Shown in pieces: positions 44,118 to 55,425 of a stretch of DNA of 64,000 nucleotides; the stretch's first letter is position 1; each line of letters opens with the position of its first letter. The stretch comes from Metallumcola ferriviriculae (GTDB lineage: Bacteria; Bacillota; JADQBR01). Below the pieces are notes generated by a model that worked only from the letters and a program-made list of their open reading frames with translations, was not told the origin of the DNA and searched no databases. Made by a program: the position numbers and the translations under genes. The stretch is taken from the NCBI RefSeq assembly GCF_035573695.1, contig NZ_CP121694.1:2394501-2458500 (forward strand). The letters run 5' to 3'.

Positions 44118-46106
44118 CTAAATTTTGAAATCCTTAACTAACTTATTTAGACCTTCGGCCAAAGTTGCTAGTTCTTCACTGGTGCCGCTTAGTTGCTGCA
44201 TGGTGGCATTTTGTTGTTCTGTGCTGGAGGCGATATTACCCGTGCTAGAGGCAGCGTCGTTGGTAGTCCTAGTTATATCGTCTATTGCCGCGGCTACCTG
44301 TGTCACGGCGCCTGACTGCTGTTGGGCAGCAGCCGCTATGTTAGCCATAATCTCATCCACTTTACTAACTGCCCTTTCTATGGTACCAAGATTTCCTTTC
44401 ACCTCTTCCGAGAGCTTGGTACCCTGTTTGACTTTCGCCGCACCGGACTGCATCTTATCCACCGCTTGAGCCGTCCCTTCACTGATATTTTTCACCAGCA
44501 GGTTTATTTCATCTACGGCACTGCTGCTTTCTTCCGCAAGTTTTCGTACCTCATCAGCCACTACTGCAAACCCACGACCGTGCTCACCTGCGCGGGCCGC
44601 CTCAATAGCAGCATTTAACGCCAAGAGGTTTGTCTGTTCCGCAATACTATCAATTGTTTCAGTAATAATGCCTATCTTTTCAGAAGCAGCCTTAAGATTC
44701 TCGATGGCTTCGGCCACTTCATGGGTACTTATTTCTATACCCTTCATGGCCTCCAAATTCCTTGCCATATTCCTGCCGCCCTCTGCAGACAATTCTCGCG
44801 CCGACTTACTTTCCCGGGCCCCTTGTTCGGCCTGCTTTGCCACATCCTTGGCACTTTCTGCTACTTCGCTCACCGAAGCACTTGTTTCCTCTGTACTTGC
44901 AGCATTCTGCTCCATCCCCGCCGAAATCTGCTGTACAGAAGAACTGACCTCTTCCATACCCGCACTGGTCTCCTCAACTGAAGCGGAAAGTTCTTCTGAG
45001 GACGCGGACACATCTTCAGCAGATGCCAACACATTCTTAATTATCTTCCGCTGCTCGCTCATCATTATATTAAAGGTATTTCCCAATACCGAAATCTCAT
45101 CTTTGCCCTTAGTCGCAACCTTAGCGGTCAAATCCCCACCGGCGCCCTTTTCCATTTCAGTAACTAGAGCAGAGACGGGTTTCACTATCTGATTACTAAC
45201 CAGAAGAGCTATTAATAACGCAAGTAATAACCCACCCAAAGTAATACTTAAGGTAATATTTCGAATTTTTACTGCCGCTGCCAAAAACTCTTTATGAGGC
45301 AAGGTAATTCCGACGGCCCATTGGCCTGCCGGGCCGTAGGCCAACATCTTCTTCACACCCTCATAAGTATACTCATCCAACCCCGACTTACCCTGCACCA
45401 TCTGCTGGATAATCGCTTTTAACTCATCGCTGCCCGTTTGCAATAAATTCTCTTTCATAATTTTATCCTTAACCGGATGAGATAAAATTAGACCTTCGGC
45501 ATTAATCAGGTACGCATACCCGGTTTTGCCAATTGTCACTTCATCCACAATCTTGGCAAACAAATCAAATTTAACCACCGATGCCAGCACGGCTGAAACA
45601 TTACCCTGCTTGTCCTTTACCGGGGACGCAAATATCAAGGCGGGTTTGCCGGTGAGTTTTGATGTGAGGACATCACTCCAGGCTTCATTGCCTTTCAGCG
45701 ACTGTTGAAAGTAATCCCTGTCGGAGAGGTCCATACCCGCATAAGCGCCGTAACTGCCGTCAATCACTACTTTTCCTTCTTTAGATACAAGCAAAAAGTC
45801 CTCCACCATATCGTCCAAAGCATTTCTGCTGTTGCTTAAAATACCCAGGGCCTTAGCAAAATGTTCCGGTGATTCTTGTGCTTCGGTAACATCCTCCAAT
45901 TGGGTAAGCAATCTGGTATTAGTCTCGATTTCCGTTTTTTCCACTGTTATGTCGTGTTCCAAGCCCTTTAAGGCCGCATTTAATTGATTAGTCGCCTGTA
46001 CCCTAATCTCAGAAGCAGCATTAGAATAAGCGGAATAACCCAATGCCACCATAGGAATTGTGATTAAAATCACAAAAGCAGTAATTAATTTAGCTTTTAG
46101 TTTCAT
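44118..46106 (-). CDS. Methyl-accepting chemotaxis protein with dCache sensor
   Basis: 662 residues from ATG 46104-46106, with GAGGG upstream. Membrane helices at about 5-27 and 283-305 flank a double-Cache ligand domain. HAMP follows, then the MCP signalling coiled coil with the hairpin tip [19 protein letters not shown]. It senses an external small molecule and signals to CheA, which is not in the window. Single-gene transcript. Ligand unknown. Confidence 0.95.
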
Positions 46107-46337
46107 CCCCACACCCTCTTCTTAATTGTTGTAGACCACCAAAAATTACAAAAACAAACTACACCACAAATGCAATCATACGGCCTATTCATATGGCCGC
46201 ATATAGTATACACCTAATATCTACTATTGCATATTTGACAAATGTCATATTTTTTTACTAAATGTAACAAATTTCACCCTTTTCCCCAATTAACCACCAA
46301 AAATGCCAAATTTTAGCCAGCCCAAAATAATAAAAAA
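46107..46337. other. Chemoreceptor upstream region
   Basis: No gene. It contains a TGACAAATGTCA palindrome (46236-46247) and a degenerate Crp-like site TGTAA-N6-TCACC (46264-46279) that might control the chemoreceptor. Confidence 0.4.
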
Positions 46338-46379
46338 CGATAACCAATCCCCCATTGCCCCACAAGGGATTAGGTATCG
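46338..46379 (-). terminator. Terminator after the Crp-family gene
   Basis: Imperfect stem CGATA-CC-ATCCC / GGGAT-GG-TATCG with a T6 run on the minus strand, 20 bp after the stop. Confidence 0.65.
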
Positions 46380-46398
46380 CTTTCAAGGCAAGAATTTA

Positions 46399-47082
46399 CT
46401 ATTCCATCCACATTTTTAACTTTTCCATATTCTTAATTAAGATGCACTGCCGGTTAAAATCTATCACATTACTTTTTTTCAAATCGTTGAGACTACGGCT
46501 GACCGTTTCCCTTGAAGCACCGATCATATTAGCCAGTTCCTGCTGACTGAGAGAAATATCAATCAACAAACCCTCTTCCGTTTCCTTACCGTACTCGCCA
46601 GCTAACTTGACCAGCGTACTCATCAATCGGCCAAATGTGTCCTTCAAAGCCAGGTCGCGAATTTGCATTTGAGCTTTTCGTAGCCGCCGGCTCATCACCT
46701 TCAGAATTTTCAAACTGGTATCAGGATGGGTTCGTAAAAATATATCCAAATCCTTATTGCGGATAATGCCAATTGTGGCATCAGTCATCACTTCCGCCGT
46801 AGCAGGATAAGGGCCATCATCAAATAACAATACCTCAGCAAAAATCTGACCCTCGCCAACAAAGTGAAGGATATGCTCCCTACCGTCTGCCAACGTTTTG
46901 GATAATTTTATACGTCCCTGCTGGACAAAAAATAAAGCGTCCCCCGGTTCACTTTCCATAAAAATAAACATTCCTTTACGATAAGGCCGAAATAATACGA
47001 TTGCGGCAAGTTGGTCCAATTCCTCATCGTTAAGGCCGGCGAATACATGTATTTGCCTAAGTACCTGCTTGAAATCCTTCAT
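46399..47082 (-). CDS. Crp/Fnr-family transcription regulator
   Basis: 227 residues. N-terminal cyclic-nucleotide-binding fold (about 15-125; GDALFFVQQGRIKL) and C-terminal HTH_Crp domain (about 150-225) with recognition helix ASRETVSRSL. No Fnr-type N-terminal cysteines, so it does not hold an oxygen-sensing cluster; the effector is unknown. The helix ERETVSR-type sequence is compatible with TGTGA-N6-TCACA sites such as 42676-42691. Next gene upstream is a NarL-like protein 51 bp away. Confidence 0.9.
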   Translation of the reverse strand: MKDFKQVLRQIHVFAGLNDEELDQLAAIVLFRPYRKGMFIFMESEPGDALFFVQQGRIKLSKTLADGREHILHFVGEGQIFAEVLLFDDGPYPATAEVMTDATIGIIRNKDLDIFLRTHPDTSLKILKVMSRRLRKAQMQIRDLALKDTFGRLMSTLVKLAGEYGKETEEGLLIDISLSQQELANMIGASRETVSRSLNDLKKSNVIDFNRQCILIKNMEKLKMWME

Positions 47083-47133
47083 CAGATAATCCCCCCTAGG
47101 TGTGAAATACCCTCACTATGCAATAATATTCTA

Positions 47134-47856
47134 TCACCCACCTTCCGATTTGGAAAGCTGAGGACCAAAAAATCCGATTATTTTACTGTGTTTTAAAGCA
47201 TAAATAGTCGCAGCAGCTCGGCTTTTTAACCCCAATTTATGGAGAATGTTTGAAACATAGTTACGCACGGTACCGGAGCCTAAATACAGTTGCGCTGCTA
47301 TTTCTTTATTTGTCAAACCTTGCCCTAACAGTATTAATATATTTAGTTCTTGTTGGGTAAGATCTTCCAACCTTTCTTCATTTATATCCCTATCTTTTTG
47401 TTTTTCGTGAAATCCCAGTAGTATCTCAGCTACAAATGGGTCAACAAATCGTCCACCCTGAATAATTTTCGTAATTATGTAGTGTAATTCGTTAATATCT
47501 GTGTTTTCTTTGGATAGATATCCATCAACCCTGGCCTGATTGAAATAACGCATTACAAATTCCGGGTCATCTCTGGTAGAAAAGATGATTACTTTGGTAT
47601 CCGGGAAGTTCTCTTTTAATTGCTGACAAAGAGCCATCCCCTCATCCACAGTTATTGAAGAATTCATTATTACGATATCAGGCCCTTTATTTCTAACTTG
47701 ATTGATACAATTCCTTCCTTCAGATACCTCCCCGATAACTTCAATCTCATCAAATTGTTCTAAAGCAGTGCGGACGCTTTTCCTGGCAATGATAAAATTA
47801 TCCGCCAGCAAAACTCTGACATTCCTGCGCTGTTCTGGCTTCATCTCCCCACCCAT
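47134..47856 (-). CDS. NarL/LuxR-type regulator with degenerate receiver
   Basis: 240 residues from ATG 47854-47856 (GGGGGTGA 5 bp upstream). N-terminal receiver fold with LLADNF where a paired DD is usual, IVIMNSSI where the phosphorylated Asp should be (Asn here), and the conserved Lys in YLSKE. C-terminal GerE HTH LTQQELNILILLGQGLTNKEIAAQLYL. The missing Asp means it cannot take phosphate in the usual way; it is probably constitutive or responds to a ligand or partner. No kinase is adjacent. Possibly co-transcribed with the Crp-family gene. Confidence 0.9.
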   Translation of the reverse strand: MGGEMKPEQRRNVRVLLADNFIIARKSVRTALEQFDEIEVIGEVSEGRNCINQVRNKGPDIVIMNSSITVDEGMALCQQLKENFPDTKVIIFSTRDDPEFVMRYFNQARVDGYLSKENTDINELHYIITKIIQGGRFVDPFVAEILLGFHEKQKDRDINEERLEDLTQQELNILILLGQGLTNKEIAAQLYLGSGTVRNYVSNILHKLGLKSRAAATIYALKHSKIIGFFGPQLSKSEGG

Positions 47857-47989
47857 TACTTTCACCCCCATCAAAATCCATGTTCCCCAATGTACACCAA
47901 TGTTAATTATTGCTAATTGTTGTTAGCTCGTTTACTCTTCGATGATTTTATTCTAAAATCCTTCTTAATATTTCTGAAACCTACAATTA

Positions 47990-48018
47990 TTGACAAAAAC
48001 TATCAATCAGGATACCAT
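47990..48018 (+). promoter_or_regulatory. Candidate promoter of the HTH-MEDS gene
   Basis: TTGACA and TACCAT separated by 17 bp, about 50 bp before the start. Confidence 0.5.
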
Positions 48019-48066
48019 GATTTCGAGATGTAGATTTTGACACTCTTTATTTGGAGTTGATAAAGA

Positions 48067-48825
48067 TTGAAACCTTTACTCACCGTTCAGGAAGTATCCG
48101 AATTATTTAAGGTGCATTCCATGACTGTTTACCGTTGGATTAAGAACGGCAAACTAAGTGCTGTCAAGATCGGACGCGAATACCGTGTTGCTCAGGAAGT
48201 AGTTGAAAAACACTTTCATGCTGGGCCTGAATATAAAGAAACTGTTAACATCAACAAGCCTTTTACCCTATCTGCTGTTCTAAAAAAATCAGAACATATT
48301 ATGGCTCTGGTTACAGACAGCGAATCCTTGCTCCAGTTGGAATTAGATTTCATGGATACCGGGCTAGCAAAAGGAGCGCGGCTGTTTAAAAGCTGTTGGT
48401 GGCAGGATCCCGACGATTTTCGGTCCCTGGCATCGGCCCAATGGACAGATTTAGAGGCTTTAGAAGCAAAAGGCCAATTAGTGATCAAGGATTTGCGGCG
48501 TCTTTACCAAGAACGCGGCATCGCCGCGGCGGCACTCAGCTGGACTAAGGAACTATCCAACGCTTTTGATTTAGGGTTTTCACAATTGTGGGGAAGTGGT
48601 TCGCCTAACGCTTCTTGTTTTACAAATGGACTACCGGAATTGTTGGCATTCGAAAGTTATCTGAACAGCATATTGGCAGGGCAGCCGATTGTTGCCATCT
48701 GCCCCTATCTAGGTACGCTTTCTCGCGCAGAAGAACTGGAATTATCACGCCACCATACCGGGATATTGGTTTTTTCCGACCAAAAAAATAAGGCACTCTT
48801 TCGGTGCCAAAGTAGAATTGGTTAA
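48067..48825 (+). CDS. HTH-MEDS sensory regulator (DcmR-like)
   Basis: 252 residues, TTG start 10 bp after GGAG. Residues 1-55 are an excisionase/MerR-like HTH (TVQEVSELFKVHSMTVYRWIKNGKLSAVKIGREYRV). Residues about 75-245 resemble the MEDS domain, a RecA/KaiC-like sensory fold known from the dichloromethane regulator DcmR and methanogen regulators. It probably binds DNA in response to a small hydrocarbon-like or nucleotide ligand; the ligand is not known. It converges with the ArsM-like methyltransferase gene. Confidence 0.8.
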   Translation: MKPLLTVQEVSELFKVHSMTVYRWIKNGKLSAVKIGREYRVAQEVVEKHFHAGPEYKETVNINKPFTLSAVLKKSEHIMALVTDSESLLQLELDFMDTGLAKGARLFKSCWWQDPDDFRSLASAQWTDLEALEAKGQLVIKDLRRLYQERGIAAAALSWTKELSNAFDLGFSQLWGSGSPNASCFTNGLPELLAFESYLNSILAGQPIVAICPYLGTLSRAEELELSRHHTGILVFSDQKNKALFRCQSRIG

Positions 48826-48848
48826 GCTTACATTTAGTCTTACTGCTG

Positions 48849-49580
48849 TTAACGGCTATAGGCCTTTATTAAAACTGTCTCGAAGGTTATTTTCGTTTTA
48901 TCATCAATATCAACCGGATACTGTTGCAGGGTACGAATATCAAACTTTGTGAAATACCTTTTGAGCAGGCCTTCCCATTCTTTAATTGTAAGGCACCCGC
49001 CCACGCACCATGACCAAGCATCAGCGTCTTCTCGCAATTCCCGCGGCACCGGCTTTTTGCTGGTAACATCAGCAGCCACGAAATACCCGTTAGTCGTAAG
49101 CACTCTAGCAATCTCAGCCAGCACCCGTTCCTTATTAGACACCAAGCTAAGACCACAATTTATGGTAACCACATCCACGGAGCCGTTTTCCATCGGTATT
49201 TGTTCCATATCCCCATGCAGAAACTGCACATTTTTGATGTCTAATTGTCTGCGAAATTCAATTGCTTTACCTAACATTTCTTTGGTTAACTCTAACCCAT
49301 AAACTTTGCCATCATTTCCCACCGTGCCCGAGGCGATAAAACAATCCAGCCCAGCACCAGAGGCTAAGTCTAATAAAGTGTCACCTGGCAGCAGGTCAGC
49401 ATTTGCCATGGTATTGCCGCATGGGTGGGAAATTTTCAGCAGTTCTTTAGGCATGCCTCTTAATTGACGTTCAGTATAAATCTCGCCGGGTAAGGTGACT
49501 GAACCCGTTGAGCTTTTGCCTCCCGCAACGGCAGCATAGTTTTCCTGTATCGCCTTTTTTAGTACATCTGTTTTTATGAT
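48849..49580 (-). CDS. ArsM-like SAM-dependent methyltransferase with non-canonical start
   Basis: The frame is open from 49580 and gives about 243 residues. The segment before the first ATG (49452-49454) matches the family N-terminus (VLKKAIQENYAAVAGG and LPGEIYTERQLRGMP), so a start at that ATG would lose about 42 conserved residues. No ATG, GTG or TTG exists upstream; GGGAGG lies 5 bases before ATC (49578-49580), with ATA next. ATC may be a mutated ATG. SAM motif LLDLASGAGLDCFIAS and a Cys pair WCVGGC recall arsenite methyltransferases; arsenic is not proven. Neighbours: Zur-like gene upstream, HTH-MEDS convergent. Confidence 0.75.
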   Translation of the reverse strand: MIKTDVLKKAIQENYAAVAGGKSSTGSVTLPGEIYTERQLRGMPKELLKISHPCGNTMANADLLPGDTLLDLASGAGLDCFIASGTVGNDGKVYGLELTKEMLGKAIEFRRQLDIKNVQFLHGDMEQIPMENGSVDVVTINCGLSLVSNKERVLAEIARVLTTNGYFVAADVTSKKPVPRELREDADAWSWCVGGCLTIKEWEGLLKRYFTKFDIRTLQQYPVDIDDKTKITFETVLIKAYSR

Positions 49581-49595
49581 AAGGTCCTCCCTCTG

Positions 49596-50051
49596 TCAAA
49601 TGGTTTGAGCTGAATGCTGTTCATTATTTGTTTTTCTTCGTTGGCACCGCCGGCAGTAGCCAAAAACTTCAAATCGATGTTCCGTTGGTAAAAAACCCGC
49701 CCAAGTTTCCAACTGCATCTGGTCTAAGGGGCATCTGTCTATTAGTTGGGTTGCGCCGCATCCTTTACAAATCAAATGATGACCGTGATTGTAGTCCTTT
49801 ACCAAAACATAAGCACGACCGCCTTCCATCGGTATCACAGACAAAATACCCAGGTCCGCTAGCAATTCAAGATTACGATAAATGGTGGAAAAGTTGGTCC
49901 CGGGGCAAATATCTTTGGCCCGTTGATGAATGCCACGGGCAGTTAAGGCCGTATGCGTATCACTGCTGACTACGTCTAAAATGGCCCTGCGCTGTTTGGT
50001 CATCTTATAACCCCGAGATTGTAATTCTTCCTTGATATTTTGGTTAGCCAA
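49596..50051 (-). CDS. zur: Fur-family repressor, Zur-like
   Basis: 151 residues from TTG 50049-50051 (GGAGG 7 bp upstream), overlapping the permease end by 8 bp. Fur-fold HTH (MTKQRRAILDVV), sensor motif HGHHLICKGCG, and two CxxC pairs (CKGC and CRRC) that hold structural zinc. Position at the end of the znuACB operon points to a zinc-uptake repressor; a manganese or iron role is not excluded. A candidate operator lies at 52538-52552. Confidence 0.85.
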   Translation of the reverse strand: MANQNIKEELQSRGYKMTKQRRAILDVVSSDTHTALTARGIHQRAKDICPGTNFSTIYRNLELLADLGILSVIPMEGGRAYVLVKDYNHGHHLICKGCGATQLIDRCPLDQMQLETWAGFLPTEHRFEVFGYCRRCQRRKTNNEQHSAQTI

Positions 50052-50883
50052 CTTCATCCCTCCCAACCGCCCCGGTAGTTAGTTTAGCCCGGCCGCTTTT
50101 AAATAGAAGTACAATAATCAACATCAACACAGCTGTCATAATAACAGTACCACCTGGTGCAGCTGCCAGGTAGTAAGACGCGGTTAGACCCACCGCCATG
50201 GCGACTTCCCCAAATACCACCGCCAATATAACCGCCTGTCGAAAACTTTTGGCCACCTGAACGCTGGCCGCCGCCGGAATAACCATCAGTGACGATATTA
50301 ATAAGACTCCTACCACCCGCATAGTAATAGTCACAGTAGCGGCAGTGACCGCCATAAATATGAAATTTACTGCATTGGCGGGTATCCCGGCCAATTTGGC
50401 ACCTTGTTCATCATATGTAAGAAAAAACAATTCTTTATATAAAAGCACAACCAATATGATCACTACCAGTCCTAATAATGCAATCATCTTAACATCCATG
50501 AGTGTAATAGCGACAATGCTGCCAAACAAATAAGCAGTCAGCTGGCTGAGATCGCCGCTGCCAAATCCTATCAATATCACTGCCAAGCTTACTCCGGCGG
50601 AAAGCATGATAGCAATAGCCAGTTCTGCATAACGCTGGTACATTCGCCGTAAATATTCAATACTCATCGCTGCCGCCACCGTAAAGAACAGCGCACCAAG
50701 CATGGCATTAAATCCTGTCAGCAGACCCGCAGCCACACCGGCCATAGATACATGCGCCAATGTATCTCCTACCAACGACAACCGCTTCAACACCAGAAAT
50801 AGCCCAATCATCGGACACACCAACGCTACTATCCCGCCGGCAGCAAATGCTCTCTGCATAAAGTCATACTGCAGCATCCCCAT
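50044..50883 (-). CDS. znuB: Metal (zinc-type) ABC transporter permease
   Basis: 279 residues, ATG after GGAGGTGA. Eight or so membrane helices of the ABC-3 family, with LSLVGDTLAHVSMAGVA near the N-terminus. Imports Zn2+ or Mn2+. Start overlaps the ATPase gene stop (TAATG). Confidence 0.92.
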   Translation of the reverse strand: MGMLQYDFMQRAFAAGGIVALVCPMIGLFLVLKRLSLVGDTLAHVSMAGVAAGLLTGFNAMLGALFFTVAAAMSIEYLRRMYQRYAELAIAIMLSAGVSLAVILIGFGSGDLSQLTAYLFGSIVAITLMDVKMIALLGLVVIILVVLLYKELFFLTYDEQGAKLAGIPANAVNFIFMAVTAATVTITMRVVGVLLISSLMVIPAAASVQVAKSFRQAVILAVVFGEVAMAVGLTASYYLAAAPGGTVIMTAVLMLIIVLLFKSGRAKLTTGAVGRDEVG

Positions 50884-51596
50884 TACATCACCTCCGATGA
50901 GCTAAAGCTAGCTCCCTCTGATTCTACCGGCGGTAGTTTTAGCTTTCCCCCGGATAAGGAGTAAACTTGGTTCACCAATCCTGCCACATCTGCTAAATGA
51001 TGCGTGATGATAACCACCGCGGCATTTTGTTCCTGGTTTAGTTTTAATAACAGCTCCAACAACACCCGGCTGTTATCTTCATCAAGACCAGTGGTGGGTT
51101 CGTCAAGAATTAGTAATTGAGGCGATGTAACCAACATCCGGGCAATCAGCACGCGCTGCCTTTCTCCGCCGGAAAGATTACCCAGCAGCGACCGGGCCTT
51201 AGTTGAGAGCCCTACCTGTGCCAATACCGCTGATACCGCCCGTCTCTGGTCAGCATTGGGACCACGAAAAAGTCCTGTGGCTGCACAAAGTTGGCTGCTG
51301 ACCACTTCCGTTACGGTAGCGGGAAAGCCGAAATTAATCGCTTCACTATTTTGAGCTAGATAGCCGATTTGGTCCCACTTCTTAAAGCGATGGAGAAGTT
51401 GGCCAAACAAACGTACTTCGCCCCGGGAAAGGGGCAATAAACCCAAAGCTGCTTTTACTAAGGTGCTTTTGCCGGCACCGTTAGCGCCAATCAAGGCCGT
51501 GAAATCCCCAGGGAAGACCTGCCAATTAATACCTTTAAGGATTTCCCTGCCTCCCTGTGTTACTGAAAGTTCACTGGTTTGCAGCACCGGTTGCAT
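50883..51596 (-). CDS. znuC: Metal (zinc-type) ABC transporter ATP-binding protein
   Basis: 237 residues from ATG 51594-51596 after GAGGTGA. Walker A GANGAGKST, signature LSGGERQRVLIARML, Walker B LLILDEPTTGLD, switch ITHHLAD. Energises ZnuB. 27 bp after znuA. Confidence 0.92.
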   Translation of the reverse strand: MQPVLQTSELSVTQGGREILKGINWQVFPGDFTALIGANGAGKSTLVKAALGLLPLSRGEVRLFGQLLHRFKKWDQIGYLAQNSEAINFGFPATVTEVVSSQLCAATGLFRGPNADQRRAVSAVLAQVGLSTKARSLLGNLSGGERQRVLIARMLVTSPQLLILDEPTTGLDEDNSRVLLELLLKLNQEQNAAVVIITHHLADVAGLVNQVYSLSGGKLKLPPVESEGASFSSSEVM

Positions 51597-51623
51597 TTTT
51601 TTCACCTCAAGTTTTTCTGACAT

Positions 51624-52523
51624 TTAGCGGGACATACCCTGTTCCAACTGCTCTAAATTGAAGCGCATACGGCTAAAATAGTCTTCTCCTTCTATATCGT
51701 GTTCAATAGGATCCAAAGCCATCATATTTTTGCCTATCTCTTCAGCCAATGTCTCGGCAACCCGGCTGGATTCCCCACGGGCATAGTAAATTGTAGTAAC
51801 ACCCTTACTGCGGCAAAAGTCTACTAAATCCGCCATTTTAGCTGGATTCGGCATTTCATCAGCATTAGTGCCCAATACTGAAACTTGGGTCAAGTTATAC
51901 CGGGCAGCGAGATGAGCAAAGGCGCCATGTGAAACTACCAAATAGCGCTGGCCCAATTCTCGGGTAATTCTTTGGTAGTCCCCATCAAGCTGCTGCAGGC
52001 GGGCAATTAATGATTCTTCATTTTGCCTATAGGCGGCAGCGTTGGCTTTATCCGCCTCTGCCAGCGCTCGGGCTATATTTCGCACCATCGCCTCAGCCAG
52101 GATCGGGTCAAGCCAGATATGCGGATCTTCATTCCCCGTCACCGTCATACCTTTGCCGGCAAAAATATAACTGGGCCCGTCAACACTGCTCTTGATTTTA
52201 TCCAACCACGGTTCCATATTAAGGCCGTTGTAGATGAAAATTTCTGCTTTGGTCAAATCAGCCATATCCCTTGGAGATGGTTCCCAATGATGGGCATCTG
52301 CACCTGAGGGCACCAATGAATGTACCGTCACCAAATCCCCACCCAAAGATGCGGTAAATTCCGCCAGAGTCGCAAAACTTACAAATACCTGCATTTTACC
52401 ATCATTATTTCCCACCTGAGCCGTATCCCGTTGGCTGCAGCCTGATGCAACAAGGGACAGCAATAGCATCGGTATCAAAATCATAAGGACCCTCCGCCTT
52501 GCTTTATTTATCCTCACATTCAT
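51624..52523 (-). CDS. znuA: Metal-binding lipoprotein, ZnuA type
   Basis: 299 residues from ATG 52521-52523 after AAAGGAG. Lipobox VASGC (about residue 29). Metal ligands in ADAHHWEPSP, EDPHIWLDP and VSHGAFAHLA. The His-rich loop seen in many ZnuA proteins is absent, so zinc versus manganese is unsettled; the AAATCGT-type operator and the Zur-like repressor favour zinc. Confidence 0.9.
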   Translation of the reverse strand: MNVRINKARRRVLMILIPMLLLSLVASGCSQRDTAQVGNNDGKMQVFVSFATLAEFTASLGGDLVTVHSLVPSGADAHHWEPSPRDMADLTKAEIFIYNGLNMEPWLDKIKSSVDGPSYIFAGKGMTVTGNEDPHIWLDPILAEAMVRNIARALAEADKANAAAYRQNEESLIARLQQLDGDYQRITRELGQRYLVVSHGAFAHLAARYNLTQVSVLGTNADEMPNPAKMADLVDFCRSKGVTTIYYARGESSRVAETLAEEIGKNMMALDPIEHDIEGEDYFSRMRFNLEQLEQGMSR

Positions 52524-52537
52524 GATTATACTCCTTT

Positions 52538-52561
52538 TGCAAATCGTTTGCATTTAGTATA
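52538..52561 (-). promoter_or_regulatory. Candidate Zur operator and -10 of znuACB-zur
   Basis: TGCAAATCGTTTGCA (52538-52552) is a perfect 6-3-6 palindrome and contains AAATCGT, the half-site of the Bacillus Zur box. It sits between a TATACT -10 (52556-52561) and the ribosome site, where a bound repressor would block transcription. Confidence 0.65.
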
Positions 52562-52823
52562 GTTCTTTATAACCAATAATATTCCTGCCTGGGGATACAT
52601 TTTTTCAGCTCAGTTAGTTTTTCCCTCCTTAGGAAGCACTGTGCAGTATACTGACGTATTTAAAGTGTATATTAAGTTATTCTACAGGTATTTTCCTTTC
52701 ACAGTAAATAATCGTGCTATATAGTAACTTTTGCTTAATATCGACAAAATTTCTGTTGTCTATTTTACTTAGATGACGTAAAATATATCTTGCTAATTAA
52801 TTTTTTTCAAAGGAGAATAGTCA
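52562..52823. other. Divergent spacer between znuA and the ATP-grasp gene
   Basis: AT-rich, no gene. A possible plus-strand promoter is TTGTCT-N17-TAAAAT (52757-52785) for the ATP-grasp gene. Confidence 0.4.
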
Positions 52824-53855
52824 ATGAACGAAATACTTTTTCTTTATAACTGGGTCCCATTAACACAAAAAAGAGGGGCTTATGCCGAATGTGCCGGCAC
52901 CAACACGGTGAATGACATTAAAAAGGCACTGCATGCTTTAGGTCACTATGTAATTTGCGTTAATTTATTAAACCAAGAGCAATTAGAGCGATTGGTCAAT
53001 TATCATCATATCGGTCGGGCATTTGTTATTGCCGAAGGATACCTGGATTTTCCCGAGAGTTTGTACGACGGCAGCGGCGCCGCCTCTATTCGTCGGGTTT
53101 TGCAAAGTATGGGCGTGGTCAGCACCCATTCGGCAGCGGAAGTTATGGAACTGTGCCGTAACAAAGACTTGACCTATAAAGTCTTGCAGGAAGCCGAACT
53201 GCCCATACCACGTCATGTATGCTTTAACTTGGCAGACAATAATATCGCCGAACAAATTGCCACCGCCCAGTGGCAGGTCAATTATCCAATGTTCGTCAAG
53301 CCTACCGGCGGCGGTAACAGTATCGGTATTGATGAGAAATCGGTAATAAATAATGCGCAAGAACTCCGCACTGTGCTGGAAAGACTGGTTAACAGCTATG
53401 GCATTACCCATGCACTGGCAGAAAGTTATCTGCCCGGGCAGGAATTTACCGTAGGCGTCATGGGCCATCAGGAAAAGTATGTCCTGCCAATTTTGGGTTT
53501 TCCTGCTAACTTCCCGGTGCGCAGCAATGCTGTAAAGAAGATTGAAGCTGAACAGCGAGATAAGTTTCAAATCCTTTACCCCACTGATAGCCGTTATGCT
53601 CGGCTGCAGCATTTGGCGTTAAAAACATTTGAAGCGTTGGGAGCCAAGGGAGTTATCCGTATCGATATGAAGGAAGACATCGATGGTAACCCTTATATCA
53701 TTGATGTTAACGGTACACCATCCCTCTCTGCCAAAGGCTCTTTGGCCTTTATGTCGGAGCATAACGGAATGACCTTCCGTGATTTGATAGGCAGTGTGCT
53801 TAAGGAACAGCCCCTTTATCAGGGTGTAGTGGAAGAGGACGTGCTGATAGTTTGA
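52824..53855 (+). CDS. D-alanine-D-alanine ligase-like ATP-grasp enzyme
   Basis: 343 residues, ATG after AAAGGAG. ATP-grasp fold with NKDLTYKVLQEAELPIPRH, nucleotide lysine in MFVKPTGGGNSIGI, LPGQEFTVGVMG, and the metal site YIIDVNGTPSLS. These match the Ddl C-domain, but the N-terminus lacks the usual Ddl start, so it may join other amino acids or peptides. Single gene, ended by the shared terminator at 53933. A real Ddl is probably encoded elsewhere. Confidence 0.85.
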   Translation: MNEILFLYNWVPLTQKRGAYAECAGTNTVNDIKKALHALGHYVICVNLLNQEQLERLVNYHHIGRAFVIAEGYLDFPESLYDGSGAASIRRVLQSMGVVSTHSAAEVMELCRNKDLTYKVLQEAELPIPRHVCFNLADNNIAEQIATAQWQVNYPMFVKPTGGGNSIGIDEKSVINNAQELRTVLERLVNSYGITHALAESYLPGQEFTVGVMGHQEKYVLPILGFPANFPVRSNAVKKIEAEQRDKFQILYPTDSRYARLQHLALKTFEALGAKGVIRIDMKEDIDGNPYIIDVNGTPSLSAKGSLAFMSEHNGMTFRDLIGSVLKEQPLYQGVVEEDVLIV

Positions 53856-53932
53856 TGGCGGTCACAATCGCCGCCTAAAATCTTTTGATAAGAAATCGCC
53901 TGGTGCCTAGAAGACTTGCGATGCTGACATGA

Positions 53933-53974
53933 AAAAACCTCAAGGTAAGTTATGAACTGTACCTTGAGGTTTTT
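53933..53974. terminator. Bidirectional terminator
   Basis: AAAAACCTCAAGGTA / TACCTTGAGGTTTTT, 15 bp perfect, between converging ATP-grasp and M23 genes. Confidence 0.93.
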
Positions 53975-53993
53975 ATAATTGTCGTATATTCAT

Positions 53994-55343
53994 TTACAGA
54001 TAGTTCCACGGGTTTCGTGTACTGCCGTTTTGACGCACTTCAAAGTGAAGATGTGATCCGGTACTGTTACCGGTAGAACCTACCGCCCCAATTTTCTCCC
54101 CTGTATCAACCCGTTCCCCAACTCGAACATTAATTTTAGACAGATGAGCATAACGAGTCTGAAGGCCATTACCGTGATCAATATAAATAACCCTACCATA
54201 ACCACCGCCCCAGCCGGCAAAGGTTACCTTCCCTTCAGCGTAGGCAAAGGCGCCTGTACCATACCTTGCGGCAATATCTAAACCATCATGAAAACTCCGC
54301 CGGCCGGTAATAGGATGAGTCCGCCAACCGTAACCGCTGGACACGCGTCGGCCCTGAACTACCCCGTAATTACGCTGACCGCCCCGGGAAACGGTCTGCT
54401 TAGTGCCTACCCGGACAATCCTGGTTACCGGTTCCTCTAAAACCTGCGTGTTCACTACATTCATTGTTGATTCCAAGCCGTTTAGCATGGCGATATCATA
54501 AGTCACGTTTTGCTTACCCTCGACACCGGGTTTTACCACTATCTTTTGACGCCGGTAAAGACTGTCGTCTTTACGATATTCGGTCTCAAAAGGTACTGGT
54601 TCTGAAATCGTATTTTCCAGGGTAACCACCACATCAAACTTGGGGTCAAACGGTTTCACCACCAATTTATCACCGGGAAATACCTTCTCAGGGTCAATAT
54701 CCGGGTTCAGCATTTCGAGCTCGTCCAAACCCATGTCATAACGCCTGGCGATTAACCAAAGGTTGTCTCCCTTGTCCACCTCGACAATGCGCGCTTCCCG
54801 TTCTTTCTCATAAATCAATTCTTTAATGCGGTCCCACTGCCAAATTTCAGCCGGTCTTACCAGTGCTTCTTCTATTTCCACCTTCTGCTTAAAATCAGTT
54901 GACTTGATTTCTGCATTTTCGTCAATTCCCGTCAGGTATTGGCTTTTATATTCCTCCAGCAGCTGCTCCATCTTTTCCTTATCACGAACTGCAAAGAGAC
55001 TTTTCCCATCAACCTTAAACCGATATCCCGGGGTTCCCAATTTTACAGATTTGACGATTACCTTATTGATATCATTTTCCAAGCGCTGCTTGTCCAACTT
55101 TGATTCGCGAACTTCGATTTTACCTATTTCTTTTACCGGATAGCCGGATTGTTTGCTTAGCTGCTCTTTATATTCTTCCAAAGCAGTTAAAAATTCCTCT
55201 CGTTCTTTCACCTGGGCCACAGGTTTGCCGTCAACAACAATTTCGTAGGCCTGCACTGCACTTTGATACCAAAAAAATGTGATTACCATCACCAACATAG
55301 ATGCTACTGCCATCAGTCGGCGATTGCGGTATTTTCTGCCCAT
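53994..55343 (-). CDS. LysM-G5-M23 cell-wall peptidase
   Basis: 449 residues from ATG 55341-55343 after AAAGGAG. An N-terminal membrane/signal helix (about 9-32), a helical region (about 40-180), LysM (about 190-238; VDKGDNLWLIARRYDM), G5 (about 240-315), and an M23 domain (about 345-449) with HDGLDIAA and HLHFEV. LysM and G5 bind cell wall; M23 cuts cross-links. It resembles sporulation-associated peptidases of Clostridia, but no sporulation link is shown here. Confidence 0.93.
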   Translation of the reverse strand: MGRKYRNRRLMAVASMLVMVITFFWYQSAVQAYEIVVDGKPVAQVKEREEFLTALEEYKEQLSKQSGYPVKEIGKIEVRESKLDKQRLENDINKVIVKSVKLGTPGYRFKVDGKSLFAVRDKEKMEQLLEEYKSQYLTGIDENAEIKSTDFKQKVEIEEALVRPAEIWQWDRIKELIYEKEREARIVEVDKGDNLWLIARRYDMGLDELEMLNPDIDPEKVFPGDKLVVKPFDPKFDVVVTLENTISEPVPFETEYRKDDSLYRRQKIVVKPGVEGKQNVTYDIAMLNGLESTMNVVNTQVLEEPVTRIVRVGTKQTVSRGGQRNYGVVQGRRVSSGYGWRTHPITGRRSFHDGLDIAARYGTGAFAYAEGKVTFAGWGGGYGRVIYIDHGNGLQTRYAHLSKINVRVGERVDTGEKIGAVGSTGNSTGSHLHFEVRQNGSTRNPWNYL

Positions 55344-55425
55344 CACTTCAGCTCCTTTATGCCACCAAAAAAATTATATGCTCATACATTTTAACCCAAA
55401 AACAGCTAATTTTCCAGAAAAAATA

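Follow-up and report, generated by a model that had tools for sequence, protein, structure and literature searches.

Where does translation begin in an ArsM-like methyltransferase gene whose reading frame offers no canonical start codon ahead of a conserved N-terminus? We examined this question in the window, that is, the whole stretch of 64,000 nucleotides that was analysed, and in the genome around it. The best overall explanation, to which we give a probability of about 0.6 on the evidence of sequence comparison, is that the gene uses a rare start codon, most likely ATA at 49577-49575.

The missing start codon and its surroundings

The features of the locus are collected in Table 1. Read 5' to 3' on the minus strand, the stop codon of the Fur-family gene (TGA, 49598-49596) is followed by CAG AGG GAG GAC CTT ATC ATA AAA ACA GAT GTA CTA. 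This TGA shares the frame of the methyltransferase, and 18 nt separate it from ATA. An earlier note on this DNA had claimed that no ATG, GTG or TTG is available after the upstream in-frame stop, and our reading of the sequence shows this to be true for the interval between the TGA and the Met at 49454; the absence of a canonical start is confirmed. The same note was also right in placing GGGAGG five bases before ATC, as the motif lies at 49591-49586, which leaves 5 nt to ATC and 8 nt to ATA. From there the frame is open down to its stop at 48849. The genes for the ZnuA-, ZnuC- and ZnuB-like proteins and the Fur-family regulator precede the methyltransferase on the same strand, almost without gaps, and the regulator, judged by its neighbourhood only, is probably Zur.

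Table 1. Features of the methyltransferase locus, in positions of the window
Feature	Coordinates	Strand	Remarks
ArsM-like SAM-dependent methyltransferase	48849..49577	minus	read from ATA, 242 residues plus stop
First in-frame ATG	49452..49454	minus	41 codons after ATA
ATA, most likely start codon	49575..49577	minus	GGAGG spacing 8; orthologue ATG at most 2 residues away
ATC, alternative start codon	49578..49580	minus	GGAGG spacing 5, less common here
Shine-Dalgarno GGGAGG	49586..49591	minus	read from sequence
Fur-family regulator	49596..50051	minus	PF01475, E 1.2e-20; likely TTG start, GGAGG at 7 nt
Metal ABC transporter permease, ZnuB-like	50044..50883	minus	PF00950, E 2.8e-66
ABC transporter ATPase, ZnuC-like by place	50883..51623	minus	PF00005, E 1.2e-28
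ZnuA-like metal-binding protein	51624..52553	minus	PF01297, E 7.8e-73

We then scanned the window together with 17 sampled 20-kb stretches (404,000 bases, about 11% of the genome) for similar cases; this sample comprises 302 non-overlapping ORFs with 150 codons or more. An ORF was retained when GGAGG stood 5-10 nt before ATA, ATC, ATT, CTG, ACG or GTC and no canonical start was present before this odd codon or in the next 15 codons. As a result, the methyltransferase ORF was the only one of the 302 retained in the 404-kb sample, where three of its codons were flagged: ATC, ATA and an ACG located 18 codons upstream of the internal ATG. We regard this pattern as more than chance. Across the genome, GGGAGG-N5-ATCATAAAA occurs once, and no plasmid match was found. 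Moreover, the two ArsM-like paralogues examined in the same genome both have ATG. Another ArsM-like gene of the host genome (L044, 708-2801), which starts with ATG, stands between a regulator of MarR type, as judged by eye, and a second, shorter methyltransferase close behind it.

The N-terminus in related proteins and the choice of codon

A first contig scan for relatives returned none, and a second returned three loci, namely two orthologues (L032 and L033, in the records JACDOG010000021.1 of a Thermoanaerobacteraceae MAG and JADQBR010000060.1 of the Bacillota MAG Soudan_17) and a Streptococcus match with 27% identity, which was left out of the comparisons. The closest orthologues found are G002 (54% identity) and G001 (50%). 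The 41 residues before the internal Met were aligned with the N-termini of these two proteins and scored 61 and 67.5, respectively, while shuffled controls had means of -0.5 and 0.0 with a standard deviation of 6.5 and none of 1000 shuffles reached the real score. Identity in this part is 14/40 with G002 and 17/39 with G001, compared with 109/201 and 96/201 in the rest of the protein. Homology was therefore found for the stretch that the earlier note had called a conserved N-terminus of about 42 codons, and the first ATG indeed lies 41-42 codons inside the conserved protein.

That note had also proposed a comparison of orthologues at this codon. Both of the closest ones carry an ATG at the upstream position, at most two residues from the ATA of the window, so that the odd codon is not conserved in them; an orthologue beginning at the internal Met, named there as evidence to the contrary, was not found in these two. 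We infer that their true start codons are the ATGs located 50 residues before the PCGN motif, although each has a second ATG close by, at a distance from the motif of 57 residues in G002 and 47 in G001. Among 41 distinct homologues taken from other genomes in a wider set, 39 show an in-frame canonical codon 44 or more residues ahead of the motif. This set was drawn from the best-scoring 60 loci among the matches listed (L002-L031 and L063-L092) by removing repeats; the window copies L002 and L065, which gave no match to the motif of the script, were left out, and a Shine-Dalgarno sequence was not required in the count.

The two exceptions among the 41 are L015 and L029. L015, a more distant homologue in genome G004, has no ATG, GTG or TTG at its N-terminus and carries CTG (1420-1422) 51 residues before the motif, at the same distance as the ATA of the window, and it may also use this non-canonical start; by eye, it sits behind the end of a dnaB-like gene. 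In L029, an ArsM homologue of genome G185, TAA is the 21st codon after the likely ATG, ahead of the conserved body, which means either a sequencing error or a broken gene.

Of the two codons that the earlier note had suggested, ATC or ATA, a non-canonical start as such holds as the best reading, and ATC is the less likely of the pair by its spacing. In the 404-kb sample, 118 ORFs have canonical starts led by GGAGG, and their commonest spacings are 7 (30/118) and 8 (27/118). A looser count in the window only gave 11/42 for spacing 8 and 1/42 for spacing 5. ATA is favoured because spacing 8 is the commoner, because it is one transition away from ATG and because AAA comes next. If AUC (49580-49578), three bases upstream, were the start instead, the mechanism would otherwise be unchanged. 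Spacing 5 does exist in this genome (9/118), and infC in Streptomyces is stated to begin with ATC (PMC5472188). However, spacing 8 is threefold commoner here, a transversion is needed to derive ATC from ATG, and ATC stands 52 residues ahead of the PCGN motif, where ATA stands 51 and the probable ATG of each orthologue 50. We regard AUC as improbable.

State of the gene and rival explanations

The protein gives a Methyltransf_31 match (E 3.4e-29), and solved ArsM structures are among its PDB matches. It resembles ArsM arsenite methyltransferases in belonging to the same family and in its cysteines: C54, C142 and C192 (numbered from ATC) align with positions 72, 174 and 224 of ArsM 4kw7, all of them cysteines, which we take to be those that bind arsenite. 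It differs from them in staying below the cut-off of the NCBIfam arsenite methyltransferase model NF008823 (E 4.7e-55, 187 of 263 bits), and no ars genes, which are usual for ArsM but not required, were found by Pfam among the nine neighbouring proteins examined. Arsenite is a putative substrate. A structure model built from a three-sequence alignment has a mean pLDDT of 59.9, with residues 1-54 below 50; neither this poor model nor RNA folding around the site lends support to the proposed start.

We further compared the neighbourhood with those of the orthologues. In both orthologous records, ORF reading gives the order M23 peptidase, methyltransferase, CRP-type regulator. The window has orthologues of both flanking genes (M23 at 53994-55346, 66% identity; CRP at 46399-47082, 76% identity), but M23 is separated from the methyltransferase by the znu-fur block and an ATP-grasp ligase gene, and the methyltransferase from CRP by two regulator genes. 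In the relatives, the matches of the Fur protein reach only 29-36% identity in G002 and 30-35% in G001, and the znu-fur block is therefore probably absent from the corresponding position there. In the comparison of these three genomes, the leader of the methyltransferase was probably replaced, and a change of the start codon is conceivable in such a setting. Elsewhere in the window genome (C1:2138205-2139260), four adjacent partial matches to the M23/LysM/G5 protein, three of them with internal stops, probably represent a decayed paralogue.

The main rival to an AUA start is early decay: the gene would have lost an ancestral ATG and would now yield hardly any protein or none. This has to be considered because the orthologues do not have the odd codon, both carrying ATG at this place, and because more family-typical residues are lost here. 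At 76 conserved columns, defined by agreement of at least 3/4 outgroups and a residue shared by at least 2/3 orthologues, the window copy departs 12 times, G001 seven times and G002 twice. Its identities with the orthologues are 47.1 and 51.0%, while the orthologue pair shares 57.7%, and this drop is larger than for the CRP or M23 genes; departures and drop are compatible with relaxed constraint on the window copy. The upstream genes are also arranged unlike those of the orthologues, and the leader may be new. On the other hand, the frame is fully open, a strong and well-spaced Shine-Dalgarno sequence is kept, low-level translation from AUA would be expected anyway, and the gene is not plainly dead, since all three arsenite-binding cysteine positions are retained. 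The earlier note had left the choice between a rare start and a failing gene; the former stands as the best reading, and for the latter the intact cysteines have to be set against the more numerous departures from family residues. We consider early decay unlikely, if slightly less so than a start at AUC.

The other explanations carry much less weight. A sequencing or assembly error that hides a canonical start would need one substitution only, and the third base of ATA begins a run of five A, a likelier site of error; but the genome is a single 3.72-Mb contig with a completeness rating of 100%, and an error in the length of the A run shifts the frame and by itself gives no canonical start, so that we hold such an error to be very improbable. 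More remote still is a start inside the gene, at ATG 49454 (giving 201 residues) or at another internal codon. This ATG is the first canonical start codon, and the ACG 18 codons before it has GGAGG at 10 nt in the scan listing. Nevertheless, either start loses conserved residues that are kept behind a canonical codon in 39 of the 41 homologues. The ATG was rejected both for this loss and because no Shine-Dalgarno word is suitably spaced from it (a GAGG stops 1 nt short of it), and the ACG was set aside for the dropped residues. Equally slight is the chance that the in-frame Fur TGA is read through to give a Fur-methyltransferase fusion. The two genes share one frame, and TGA followed by C, as at the Fur stop, is a leaky context; a shared frame is however expected by chance in one third of gene pairs, and a new Shine-Dalgarno sequence sits between the two genes. 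Recoding at this TGA was rejected, as RNA folding around the site is unremarkable (z 0.70) and no Rfam match was found in 46000-54500. Two further candidates were also discarded on reading the sequence: a start with frameshift at the TTG that overlaps the Fur stop, as this TTG lies in another frame, has no Shine-Dalgarno sequence and needs a +1 shift, and an out-of-frame ATG at CAGATGTAC, whose reading ends after two codons.

A possible mechanism and its precedents

Returning to the start at ATA, we infer that the methyltransferase is the last gene of one operon, the tightly packed run znuA-znuC-znuB-fur-methyltransferase, with AUA as the codon used, a low yield and a dependence on IF3. The AUA at 49577-49575 would be read by the ordinary initiator fMet-tRNA, and GGGAGG at a spacing of 8 nt would compensate for the weak codon, as perhaps would ribosomes that have just finished fur 18 nt upstream. 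By analogy, discrimination by IF3 would hold the output well below the AUG level, so that little of the enzyme would be made compared with the proteins encoded upstream. It is also conceivable, though improbable, that selection has made the AUA a throttle on translation. An ArsM-like enzyme recently added as the last gene of a zinc-uptake/Zur transcription unit would then be held at a low, IF3-dependent level, and the methylation of metalloids would be coupled to zinc status and to the supply of ribosomes.

Weak starts are documented as a means of limiting the amount of a protein, with precedents in Staphylococcus aureus, Streptomyces and the rpoS gene of Escherichia coli. PMC13009471 reports AUA starts for infC, ccpN and citZ of S. 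aureus and an AUU start for cvfC1; infC, cvfC1 and ccpN have extended Shine-Dalgarno motifs. The reporters of cvfC1, ccpN and citZ reached about 10% of the AUG value in poor medium, and that of ccpN up to 30% in rich medium. The methyltransferase is similar in having a probable AUA behind a strong Shine-Dalgarno sequence. However, the S. aureus starts were shown by ribosome profiling and, in three cases, by reporters, while the present one is a candidate from sequence, and the odd start of ccpN is common to S. aureus and B. subtilis, whereas the orthologues of the methyltransferase have ATG. According to PMC5472188, sigR of Streptomyces has a GTC start repressed by IF3, infC of E. coli has a start known to be IF3-sensitive, and infC of Streptomyces is said to begin with ATC. 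Like sigR as described there, the methyltransferase would have a non-canonical start outside infC that is missed by annotation based on ATG, GTG and TTG; its codon differs from GTC, and the effect of IF3 was demonstrated for sigR but is assumed here by analogy. For an E. coli isolate, PMC12864459 reports a change of the rpoS ATG to ATA and reduced RpoS.

The case would therefore be a further instance of an already documented kind, one more example without a new mechanistic principle, but a candidate non-AUG start outside the few species studied. Its practical consequence is that automated annotation would shorten the gene, since the ORF mechanically called from ATG, GTG or TTG has 201 residues and loses the conserved N-terminus. 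The host genome itself provides a built-in comparison in its infC (L035, 3195501-3196001, minus strand), which lacks a canonical start at its N-terminus. An ATT stands at TIGR00168 position 1, two codons after a stop (a position combined from two outputs) and at a spacing of 9 nt from GGAGG; the gene apparently starts with this codon, and starts of this kind are known to be IF3-sensitive in E. coli. Both genes thus show an AUH codon preceded by GGAGG and lack a canonical start in the vicinity; they differ in that infC of E. coli is an established case of autoregulation, while nothing is known to connect the methyltransferase with IF3.
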